This document shows positions 33,640 to 36,454 of a stretch of 64,000 nt of DNA, piece by piece (position 1 is the stretch's first letter; each line of letters starts with the position of its first letter). The stretch is from assembly GCF_029953265.1 (NCBI RefSeq), contig NZ_JASBAO010000001.1:1626001-1690000 (forward strand), given 5' to 3'. The notes under the pieces were generated by a model that saw nothing but the letters and a program-made list of their open reading frames with translations, ran no database searches and was not told the origin of the DNA. The position numbers were made by a program, and so were the translations under genes. The DNA is from Commensalibacter oyaizuii (GTDB lineage Bacteria > Pseudomonadota > Alphaproteobacteria > Acetobacterales > Acetobacteraceae).

Positions 33640-34389
33640 TTAGTTTTTTACACCTTTTTGAGTTTGTAAAACATCTTTGATAAAATTGGTTGCTTCATCC
33701 AACGTTTGTACTCGGATTAGCCCTTTATAATTAGGTGCTGGTTTGTCCAAATCCCGTAACAATATGCAAACCATTCCCGCATCATACGCTGCTTTTAATC
33801 CAGTATCAGAATCTTCGATGACGATACAATCTTCTGGATTAACCCCTTCTTGCTCAGCTGCATAAAGATATAAATCTGGAAAAGGTTTTGGACGTTCCAT
33901 ATCACACCCTGAATGAGTACGATCTTTCTCAAACCAATGGGTTAATTTTGCTGTAGCAAATTTAATATCCATTTCTTCTAGTGAAGAATTTGATCCAATA
34001 CGATAAGGAATGCCAAAATCCTTTAATGTTTGTAAAATTGTTTCAACCCCTGCCATTTTATGTATATCGTGATACATGGCTTGAACAATTTTATCATGGG
34101 TATGTTTACGCCAATGCAAAGGCAAAGGCGTGGTCACATGACGTTCAATTTCTTTTTCAATGTCAACAAGTTGAACGCCACTAAACAATTGATGGGCTTC
34201 AGGCCCTGTAATGTTCCAACCATATTTACGGGCTTCTTCTCCTAAAACTTCGCCAACAACATGTTCACTTTCAACCAAAACGCCATCACAATCAAAAATA
34301 ACCAATTTTAGTTGACCTTCTGGATGTACAGCTTTGGGCGCTTGCTGTATTGCTTGAATAAATTCTTTCTTCATAAAGTTAACTTTCAT
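33640..34389 (-). CDS. HAD-superfamily phosphatase (CbbY/Gph-like)
   Basis: Haloacid-dehalogenase fold hydrolase acting on a small phosphorylated metabolite, probably a sugar phosphate. The 249 residues contain motif I FDCDGVLVESE with Asp33 and Asp35, a helical cap (about 45-110), motif II GSNSSLEE, and the motif III/IV region VIEDSDTGLKAAYDAGM. Its ATG overlaps the hemE stop (TAATG), so translation is coupled; an alternative ATG is at 34374. A role in phosphoglycolate or beta-phosphoglucomutase-like chemistry cannot be settled. Confidence 0.85.
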   Translation of the reverse strand: MKVNFMKKEFIQAIQQAPKAVHPEGQLKLVIFDCDGVLVESEHVVGEVLGEEARKYGWNITGPEAHQLFSGVQLVDIEKEIERHVTTPLPLHWRKHTHDKIVQAMYHDIHKMAGVETILQTLKDFGIPYRIGSNSSLEEMDIKFATAKLTHWFEKDRTHSGCDMERPKPFPDLYLYAAEQEGVNPEDCIVIEDSDTGLKAAYDAGMVCILLRDLDKPAPNYKGLIRVQTLDEATNFIKDVLQTQKGVKN

Positions 34390-35453
34390 TATGCTAATGT
34401 TCTTACCGTATTCACTAATTCATAAACGTGTTCAACGGGAGTGGAAGGTAAAACCCCATGCCCTAAATTAAGAATATGGGGTCTATTTTTTAATTCAACA
34501 CATAAATTATAAATCTCCTGTTTCAACATCTTGGAACTATGTAATAAACATAAAGGATCTATATTCCCTTGAAATCCAATTGTTGGATTAATTGTTTTAT
34601 TTAACAACGAAATATCAGCTGTTTGATCAATACCAACTGTTTTAAGCCCTGTTCCATCAATATAAGATTGTAATTTTGTTCCCGCTAAACGAGGAAAACC
34701 AATAATTGGAATATGAGGATATTTTTGTTGTATAATTCGAACAATTCGACAGGTTGGTTGAATAACGTATTCATTGAACAAAGATACAGGTAATAGTCCT
34801 GCCCAACTATCAAATAATTTTACCGCTTCAGCACCAGCTTCAATTTGTCGACATAAATAATCTGCAGTTGTTTTAACTAATAAGTTAATAATTTTTTTAA
34901 AGAGAGATGGATTTTCATACATCATTTTAAAAACAGTTGCGAAATCTTTAGAACTTCCTCCTTCAACCATGTAACAAGCAACCGTAAAAGGAGATCCAGT
35001 AAAGCCAATTAAGGTAACTGTTTTAGCTGCAGCAGTGCCAATGGAGTCAAAACTATTCACAATCTTATTTAATCGTCTTATAGCTTCTAAAACAGGTTCG
35101 GTTTTTTCTTCTGCTTGATATGGATTTAATTTTAATAAATCTTGTTCGGATTGAATAGGTGGAAGTACAGGGCCTCTACCTTCGATAAATTGTAAGTCTT
35201 GTCCCAAAGCCCAAGGAAGAATTAAAATATCTGAAAATAAAATAGCACCATCAAATGCAAAACGTCGTATAGGTTGAAGGGTAATTTCTACTGCTAAATC
35301 AGGGGTCATACATCGAGTTAAAAAGTCAGCTTGCTGTCGTAACAGTCTGAATTCAGGCAGAAATCTTCCTGCTTGTCGCATTAACCACACTGGTGGAGGC
35401 CAAATAGATTGCCCATTTAAAACAGTTAAGAGTTTTTTGTTCGTCGACAGCAT
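34389..35453 (-). CDS. hemE: Uroporphyrinogen decarboxylase
   Basis: Converts uroporphyrinogen III to coproporphyrinogen III in heme synthesis. The 354 residues show the N-terminal signature PPVWLMRQAGRFLPEFR (about 19-35), GFTGSPFTVACYMVEGGSSKDF near 150 and GFQGNIDPLCLL near the C-terminus. It is first in a minus-strand run hemE, HAD, hemJ, dehydratase. In Caulobacter hemE borders the chromosome origin, which makes the empty region just upstream of its start notable. Confidence 0.97.
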   Translation of the reverse strand: MLSTNKKLLTVLNGQSIWPPPVWLMRQAGRFLPEFRLLRQQADFLTRCMTPDLAVEITLQPIRRFAFDGAILFSDILILPWALGQDLQFIEGRGPVLPPIQSEQDLLKLNPYQAEEKTEPVLEAIRRLNKIVNSFDSIGTAAAKTVTLIGFTGSPFTVACYMVEGGSSKDFATVFKMMYENPSLFKKIINLLVKTTADYLCRQIEAGAEAVKLFDSWAGLLPVSLFNEYVIQPTCRIVRIIQQKYPHIPIIGFPRLAGTKLQSYIDGTGLKTVGIDQTADISLLNKTINPTIGFQGNIDPLCLLHSSKMLKQEIYNLCVELKNRPHILNLGHGVLPSTPVEHVYELVNTVRTLA

Positions 35454-35954
35454 AAAAGAAACTTTCTTTTTATTTCCAATTATTCACATAAACAAAGTTT
35501 AACAAAAGTTTTTCTTTTTTTCATGTTCTTTAAAATAAAAAGAAAATTTAAATTTTTGTTGTTATGTTTATGAACCCTGTTAGTACTGTGGTACCCATCT
35601 TTCCAAAAATGTACCCCATTTTTCTCACAGAGTGTACAATTTTTAATAAATTGATTTTATTATCAAAATTTGAGTTATCCAGATATTATCAAACCACCCC
35701 TGTGTACAACTCACTGATTTTTAAAAAGAGAGTACAATCCCCAGTACTCGGTACCCCCTTTGTTTTTCATTCGTACAATCCCCATGTACCACATTGTACC
35801 ACAGGCAAAAATCAAACATATTTTTATCAATTGTTTTTCTAGAATCCGAAAGAATCGATTTTATAATTTGGTAGAAACAAATAGAGAATGATTTAAAATG
35901 AATTAAGATTAAAAATAATTTCAAGTTAAATATTTGATAAACGATAAGAAGACA
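35454..35954. other. Candidate replication origin: DnaA box plus GTAC-repeat array
   Basis: A gene-free 501-base stretch upstream of hemE. Visible are a perfect DnaA box TTATTCACA (35480-35488) and an 8-of-9 box TTATCCAGA (35675-35683). There are also eleven GTAC tetranucleotides between 35583 and 35799, where one or fewer would be expected. Within them GTACAATCCCCA occurs twice (35732-35743, 35773-35784), TGTACCACA twice (35785-35793, 35795-35803) and GTACCC three times. The flanks (35490-35570, 35810-35940) are very AT-rich, suitable for duplex opening. The hemE neighbour is the alphaproteobacterial context for oriC. Inference only; no skew was computed. Confidence 0.5.
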
Positions 35955-36364
35955 ATGATGACAATTAAACGGATTGATTATTATAAAGCCGCTCCAGATA
36001 CGATGAAGGCAATGATGGATCTGGATAAATCAACCAAGACATCTATTCTTTCTGCATCTTTACAAGAGTTGATTAGAATAAGAGCTTCTCAAGTAAGGAT
36101 GCGTTGAAAGCAAGAGAAGAAGTTTTAAGATTAATGGCTGTGAGTGTTTAGAAAGAAAGCCCTTTGTTTGATAAACGAGAGAAAGCAGCTTTGTTATGGA
36201 CTGAAACATTAACGTTATTATCTGAAAAAGAGGCATCTGACACCATTTACCAGCAAGTCTCAGAACAATTTACTGATCAAGAATTGGCAGAACTTACAGT
36301 TATGATTGCTGTTATTAATGCATGGAACCGTTTTGGGGTTGGTTTTGCGGTGCGACCAAAGTAA
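35955..36364 (+). pseudogene. Decayed AhpD-like carboxymuconolactone decarboxylase family gene
   Basis: The first piece (35955-36107) reads MMTIKRIDYYKAAPDTM and continues to IRIRASQ, then a frameshift leads to TGA at 36105. The second piece, in another frame from 36095, reads KDALKAREEVLRLMAVSV, then a TAG at 36149-36151 where the family has Trp, then KESPLFDKREKAALLW and on to FGVGFAVRPK. The two join exactly around the place where the family carries its CxxC redox motif (ING-C-AY-C-IDMHT), which is missing. So a small deletion removed the active site and shifted the frame, and a nonsense mutation followed. Remaining similarity is still high, so the decay is recent. Confidence 0.85.
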
Positions 36365-36454
36365 GAAATATAAAAGCTTTGTTTTTATTCAACGGTAAGA
36401 TTTTTTTAATTATAAGTTGATTTTTTATTTTGTACTGGGTATATGGGTCTTTAA

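Follow-up and report, generated by a model that had tools for sequence, protein, structure and literature searches.

A conserved GTAC array at the probable chromosome origin of acetic acid bacteria and its candidate orphan methyltransferase

The window analysed here, a stretch of 64,000 nucleotides of the Commensalibacter oyaizuii genome (G000, C1:1626001-1690000), carries hemE next to a short region rich in the palindrome GTAC (Table 1). A word count over the window gave 107 GTAC in total, 11 of them within the 217 bp beside hemE (35583-35799), and any other 217-bp stretch held three at most. At the window's own rate 0.36 GTAC are expected per 217 bp (Poisson P(≥11) about 2.6e-13), and on these figures a chance cluster was rejected; eleven GTAC far above expectation were what the first-pass annotation of this DNA had noticed, and their exact positions were confirmed. 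The direct repeats that it had listed, GTACAATCCCCA at 35732 and 35773 (41 apart), TGTACCACA at 35785 and 35795 (10 apart) and GTACCC at 35591, 35611 and 35751, were found exactly as described, and so were the AT-rich flanks, the right one (35800-35954) being 78% AT. The stretch between hemE and the array may act as an unwinding element.

Genome-wide, GTACAATCCCCA has a single extra copy (C1:632302), which lies in DNA with at most three GTAC per 250 bp. Forward-strand matches to the triplet GTAC-N0..28-GTAC-N0..28-GTAC numbered 18 in the whole genome, seven of them overlapping in the array and never more than two overlapping elsewhere; the same pattern built on the reversed word CATG gave 88 matches, which indicates that GTAC is otherwise scarce in this genome. 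An Rfam search of the window returned a tRNA as the sole match, and a 29-aa structure query returned no match. To the right of the array lies an open reading frame (about 35955-36365) which we take to be of the carboxymuconolactone decarboxylase type; it is split into two frames here and has a similar start in three congeners. The right-hand neighbour in other acetic acid genera is presumably maf-like, and sequence comparison showed that the array is also kept where this neighbouring gene changes.

Table 1. Features of the hemE-side region (positions in the window).
Feature	Position	Strand	Basis or remark
hemE (uroporphyrinogen decarboxylase), borders origin	34389..35453	-	ORF; TIGR01464 equivalog, 367 bits against a cut-off of 303
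AT-rich stretch (81% AT) from hemE to array, candidate unwinding element	35454..35583	.	composition; A-rich tract at the same place in the array consensus
TTATTCACA, DnaA-box match	35480..35488	+	absent from the 8 congeners
GTAC array, 11 palindromes	35583..35799	.	35583, 35591, 35611, 35634, 35704, 35732, 35744, 35751, 35773, 35786, 35796
Fixed-spacing core GTAC-N16-GTAC-N19-GTAC	35591..35637	+	typical of acetic acid bacteria; 106 of 397 family genomes
TTATCCAGA, DnaA-like box	35675..35683	+	9 of 9 genus genomes; TTATCC in 69 of 84 arrays
TTGTACACA (TGTGTACAA on the + strand), DnaA-like box with GTAC inside	35701..35709	-	TGTGTACAA in 84 of 84 distinct arrays
TCCCCA (Caulobacter W-box sequence), within repeat GTACAATCCCCA	35738..35743	+	W-box as defined in the available part of PMC4285127
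TCCCCA (W-box sequence), second GTACAATCCCCA copy	35779..35784	+	sequence match

A pattern search on spacing only (GTAC-N16-GTAC-N19-GTAC) matched 106 of 397 Acetobacteraceae genomes, belonging to 24 of 102 genera, and inspection by eye revealed a recognisable array sequence in all 106, G376 and G390 having a second, unrelated match. The reversed-pattern control also gave scattered matches, at most five per genome, and what counts is therefore which sequence is matched and where, not the bare match. Named genera with the array are Acetobacter, Gluconobacter, Komagataeibacter, Gluconacetobacter, Asaia, Bombella, Saccharibacter, Neokomagataea, Novacetimonas, Acidomonas, Brytella and Commensalibacter. 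A longer pattern found at least 120 stretches in named genomes, and among the 80 matches listed there were only Acetobacteraceae, either acetic-acid genera or other family members. Eight of 385 genomes of the class matched the core pattern, four with the same array, in Acetobacteraceae, and four (G429, G436, G451 and G646) with unrelated sequence. The match of G436 (C1:1419505-1419551) is a GTAC-rich GTACCCCAAGTACCAA-type repeat, and G451 has a four-copy GTAC-rich repeat family at four places.

Upstream of hemE all eight other genomes of the genus carried 10-11 GTAC per 250 bp, with number and spacing kept, so that the lack of repeats in close relatives which would have refuted the first-pass annotation was not observed. 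Seven genomes of other genera had 5-12 GTAC per 250 bp, six of these at 58-67% GC, and the remaining 14 family loci compared had 0-3; the GC content of the 900 bp upstream of hemE ranged from 29% to 68% among the loci listed. The arrays of 85 of the 106 genomes were taken for alignment, and removal of one duplicated genome left 84 distinct arrays. The start of hemE was found 86-211 bp from the core, pointing away from it, in 74 of the 85 arrays, while in the other 11 no hemE was present within 0.4-1.5 kb on either side. Since the array is kept in these 11, hemE is the usual neighbour of the array but not a necessary one. All 11 belong to genera g57 and g125, which are Bombella- and Saccharibacter-like. 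We consider the GTAC array to be almost certainly a functional, lineage-specific part of the origin. A description of it was not found in the open-access literature searched, which leaves the absence of one unproven.

Analysis of the 84 distinct arrays indicated that GTAC is the enriched unit, with 10.65 copies per array against 1.89 in dinucleotide shuffles (5.6-fold), while the next palindromic tetramer, CATG, reached 1.90 against 0.93 (2-fold) and TGCA 0.74 against 0.56. The count per array ranged from 6 to 15 (median 12), and the excess ran past the array (0.75, 0.64 and 0.31 per bin against 0.14, 0.19 and 0.07). The CcrM-type word GANTC averaged 1.9 per array against the 10.65 of GTAC and is therefore not the main word of the array. 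The left part of the consensus reads cTGTGgat..cGgGGTACCC..ctTTC..AAAAtGTACCCC...TT.cccACA.tGTGTACA and continues ... gtTATCC.ga ... CTGTGTACAAc.CaC ... TcC.CgGTACTCgGTAC ... GTAC.aTCCcCATGTACCcCagtactc. Six sites outside the selection pattern were GTAC in 100%, 92%, 93%, 85%, 99% and 76% of rows, and an extra site between the first two of them in 42%. All sites have only the bare GTAC palindrome in common. The first-pass annotation had called the array iteron-like, a loose fit in that the repeating unit is GTAC and its surroundings vary between sites; plasmid-like iterons were not supported. The flanks of individual sites are also conserved across arrays, for instance AAAAtGTACCCC and CCCCATGTACC, and additional GTAC occur at lineage-specific places.

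The origin DnaA boxes within the arrays are weak or variant (TTATCCAGA, TTGTACACA and TCCCCA), and an AT-rich element is present. TCCCCA was found in 75 of 84 arrays, while full TTATCCACA or its complement was absent from 83 of 84; TGTGGATNA, one step off the consensus box, occurred in 32 of 84, so classical DnaA boxes are not wholly gone. Of the two boxes pointed out earlier in the window, both lie where they had been placed, but the supposedly perfect TTATTCACA is unique to this genome within the genus while TTATCCAGA is general there. The statement that the repeats are neither DnaA nor CtrA motifs was partly right: it agrees with the result for CtrA, but two repeat types overlap DnaA-like sequence (TGTGTACAA and TCCCCA). 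The CtrA site TTAA-N7-TTAA was found in none of the 85 arrays and nowhere in window positions 35454-35954, and a CtrA-site origin was not supported. Array-less relatives show at the same place sequences such as TGTGGATAACGGGGTACC, in which one GTAC follows a DnaA box and TTGTCCACA- or TTATCC-type boxes come next; the array may have grown from that single GTAC site.

GC skew was sampled along the 2.34-Mb contig of G000 in twenty 12-kb samples and two window pieces. Negative values prevailed between about 0.6 and 1.66 Mb, and from there round to about 0.5 Mb the skew was positive; the sign changed between the samples at 1,626-1,658 kb and those at 1,664-1,690 kb, with the array at 1,661.6 kb, and the cumulative skew within the window reached its minimum at about 36-40 kb. 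In G008 skew passed from minus to plus between 12 and 98 kb, with hemE at 24 kb, and in G033 it flipped between 1.71 and 1.87 Mb, with hemE at 1.875 Mb and a later sample at 2.04 Mb slightly negative. The sign change at the locus in these three sampled genomes upheld the candidate origin put forward from the window, and the locus beside hemE is very likely the chromosome replication origin (oriC) of this Commensalibacter-type acetic acid bacterium. In G097, an acetic-acid-clade genome without the array that has hemE at 949 kb, ten samples put the skew change in the interval 920-1000 kb.

The position of dnaA in G000 is C1:618249. Its distance from the array or hemE, in half-contigs, was 0.89 in G000, 0.99 in G008, 1.00 in G021, 0.92 in G077, 0.98 in G097, 0.93 in G061, 0.75 in G033 and 0.69 in G091, which together make eight acetic-acid-clade contigs; for G021, G077 and G091 the array position alone stood in for the origin. 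The corresponding distance is 0.14 in G131, which stands outside the acetic acid clade. With dnaA at such distances, methods that use this gene as their anchor probably place oriC wrongly in acetic acid bacteria, and a search with the 47-bp core alone could find the probable true origin in this group. The available text of PMC3751514 and PMC13209655 places the oriC of two Acetobacter genomes at dnaA. In the latter oriC stands at the skew maximum, about 51 kb from dif, which would fit a dnaA at the terminus, while the former has dif opposite the dnaA-anchored oriC, which does not fit.

The DnaA recognition segment RDHTTV[ML]HA did not differ among the 27 genomes (of 30) in which it was read, whether or not they have the array, so a changed DnaA specificity was rejected; the reading left out G091, G061 and G147 and thus covers one (G097) of the three genomes that lack the methyltransferase described below. 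In G097 the residues just before the conserved motif differ.

A candidate writer is encoded at G000:C1:298075-298941, next to mltA. It is a 289-aa DNA methyltransferase (PF01555) which, since TSPPYN comes first and DPFxGxGT last, belongs to the beta class. An orthologue was present in every array genome searched (106 of 106, E ≤ 1.7e-83) and in 64 of the 291 family genomes without the array (E ≤ 1e-60); presence and absence were scored by eye, and the Fisher p for enzyme against array ignores kinship. The gene adjoins mltA in all seven loci examined and has a MauG-like peroxidase on its other side in four of four, and no nuclease was found among the neighbouring ORFs scanned, which makes the methyltransferase an orphan. 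Among solved structures it is closest to N4-cytosine and N6-adenine methyltransferases, including PvuII, CcrM and the 'Methyltransferase' entry 8urk/9c3s, which we take to be the GTWWAC enzyme and which is a distant likeness (8urk, E 7.8e-16). Judged by co-occurrence with the array, the prospect that this mltA-linked enzyme methylates GTAC is evenly balanced. CcrM-like matches above 200 bits were found in 55 of 57 genomes searched (not in G010 and G065), and the 289-aa methyltransferase was also present in all 26 array genomes of that search. To a clade-wide, very probably functional array the analysis adds this orphan enzyme as a candidate writer.

Three small enzyme-less genomes also lack the array. 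In the 500 bp at hemE, G097 has no GTAC and 14 consensus DnaA boxes, G061 one GTAC and two boxes, and G147 no GTAC and one box; no dense GTAC cluster was found elsewhere in these genomes except a GTACT microsatellite (G147:C1:536876-536914). The HemE tree joined the three to the acetic acid clade (100/100), nested in the array clade. Their placement outside the array clade was not rejected by the AU test (p 0.29; p 0.44 with DnaA added), so the claim is a joint absence of enzyme and array and not a joint loss; co-loss on the tree was set aside because a sister position is left unrejected. Independent enzyme/array pairs on supported branches number just three, with no significance, and the phylogenetic link of array to enzyme is suggestive only. 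All 64 non-array genomes with the enzyme lack the fixed-spacing core, G210, G239 and G247 among them having 6-8 GTAC otherwise spaced. The methyltransferase is older and wider-spread than the array.

Outside the array clade 99 genomes were prepared for comparison, one of which (G297, 5 bases) was dropped; G136 and G071, with partial matches, were left out, and hemE was not found in G063, G072, G201, G212, G081 and G255. GTAC at hemE averaged 1.88 with the enzyme (n=43) and 0.76 without it (n=55; p 1.4e-6), the overlapping GGTA ranking above GTAC, the second tetramer class. Within genera the difference was mostly gone or reversed: counts with against without the enzyme were 1, 1, 1 against 3, 2, 3 in g100, 3, 3, 2, 3 against 3 in g58 and 5 against 3 in g18, and were equal in g73, g5 and g104. 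The link of enzyme to GTAC outside the array clade is confounded. The genome-wide ratio of observed to expected GTAC was 0.75 (G000), 0.79 (G008), 0.53 (G033) and 0.95 (G064) with the enzyme and 0.79 (G097) and 0.75 (G061) without it; having no relation to the enzyme, GTAC depletion was rejected as a footprint of methylation.

We propose that the orphan beta-class methyltransferase beside mltA would target GTAC. Because GTAC is palindromic and overlaps or abuts weak DnaA sites (TTGTACACA, GTAC-xxTCCCCA and GTACCCCA), replication of the origin would leave about a dozen sites hemimethylated at the same time. Hemimethylated GTAC might alter DnaA assembly, directly or via a hemimethyl-GTAC-binding protein, and the altered assembly would then block immediate re-initiation, as Dam and SeqA do on GATC in E. 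coli (the SeqA/GATC role is set out in the available parts of PMC4285127 and PMC7364216). The whole chain, from origin and functional array to control of initiation through GTAC methylation by the orphan enzyme, we put at a little short of even. More broadly, and with greater reserve, acetic acid bacteria may have evolved an independent epigenetic replication clock, convergent with Dam/SeqA, in which about a dozen GTAC have largely replaced consensus DnaA boxes, the mltA-linked N4-cytosine/N6-adenine methyltransferase writes and a hemimethyl-GTAC factor or DnaA reads, the enzyme-less lineages using canonical boxes.

The array may instead consist of sites for a dedicated GTAC-centred DNA-binding protein, an accessory initiator factor or a repressor, acting with no DNA modification as CtrA does at the Caulobacter origin, a reading that we find credible but rather doubtful. 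Spacings of exactly 16 and 19 nt in 106 genomes would suit a fixed nucleoprotein complex, conserved flanks like AAAAtGTACCCC and CCCCATGTACC are expected of a sequence-specific binding protein, and the methyltransferase is linked to the array by co-occurrence only; however, nothing except the bare palindrome is common to the sites, with flanks varying from one to the next, and extra GTAC stand at lineage-specific places. It is unlikely that the GTACs merely come with weak DnaA boxes peculiar to this lineage (TTGTACACA, TGTACCACA, GTACCCCA and TCCCCA-type) and have no other reader or writer, since many sites (GTACTCGGTAC and GTACTGACGGTACTC) resemble no DnaA box and the DnaA segment is the same with and without the array where read, yet non-array genomes use TTATCC- or TTGTCCACA-type boxes without GTAC. 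This explanation would account for the contrast of TGTGTACAA in all 84 arrays with TTATCCACA in one; TTGTCCACA boxes are present in some non-array relatives, and the available text of PMC4285127 describes TCCCCA as a weak Caulobacter DnaA box. A chance or low-complexity cluster, or a hemE/maf regulatory element unrelated to replication, is highly improbable even though the array stands upstream of hemE here, as do 74 of the 85 compared, a position that would by itself allow control of hemE, given its fixed spacing in 106 genomes, the local P of about 1e-13, its place at the skew switch in three genomes and its retention in the 11 arrays without nearby hemE and where the right-hand neighbour differs.

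Under the proposed control of initiation by GTAC methylation, the array may, by analogy, work like E. coli oriC with Dam and SeqA, and membership of that family is not claimed. The best-known case in which methylation controls origin firing is Dam/SeqA, and at E. coli oriC GATC occurs about 11-fold in 200-250 bp; both origins have a palindromic tetranucleotide packed over weak DnaA sites and an orphan methyltransferase in the genome. In contrast, the word here is GTAC and not GATC, the candidate enzyme is of the beta class (CcrM/PvuII-like) whereas Dam belongs to another methyltransferase class, and the word is not clustered upstream of dnaA (2 GTAC in 279 bp, in G000, the one genome considered). 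If the proposal is true, it would be a second, independently built code of similar density, in industrially used bacteria (vinegar, cellulose and bee-gut symbionts), and the question of why a palindromic word is used at about a dozen copies would become testable by comparison.

Cori of Caulobacter crescentus is similar in its few consensus DnaA boxes, the TCCCCA W-box sequence, a CcrM-like enzyme and the linkage to hemE, which adjoins the origin there, but the arrays lack its CtrA sites. The account of Cori in the available part of PMC4285127 mentions no GTAC array. In Burkholderia cenocepacia, methylated CACAG and GTWWAC occur in the origins, with BCAL3494 and BCAM0992 as methyltransferases; CACAG lies at almost every DnaA box, and a pair of DnaA boxes encloses two or more GTWWAC (PMC7364216, available text). 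GTWWAC methylation is also discussed in PMC5390034, whose accessible part draws no origin link of its own. The B. cenocepacia origins, as far as the accessible text describes them, are the nearest published parallel found: methyltransferase words stand in the origins and 8urk/9c3s is among the nearest solved relatives of the candidate enzyme, but the words are others, the arrays here hold a dozen GTAC at the median, and 8urk is distant. Iteron origins of plasmids and of Vibrio chromosome 2 (RctB) share repeated short sites with the array, and on Vibrio chromosome 2 methylated GATC lie within the iterons, but here a 4-bp core alone repeats and not repeats of about 11-22 bp with one consensus; inspection by eye of the ORFs listed around the array showed no recognisable Rep or RctB gene.

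Two further observations concern the methyltransferase gene. About 35 bp before the start of this gene, within the 3' end of mltA, there is a GTAC triplet (L202:1209-1241; G000:C1:298006-298038), which may serve autoregulation. In six non-array genomes (G098, G140, G173, G236, G311 and G018) the gene shares a contig with hemE and lies 3-9 kb away from it, which suggests that the methyltransferase gene may have begun origin-proximal.
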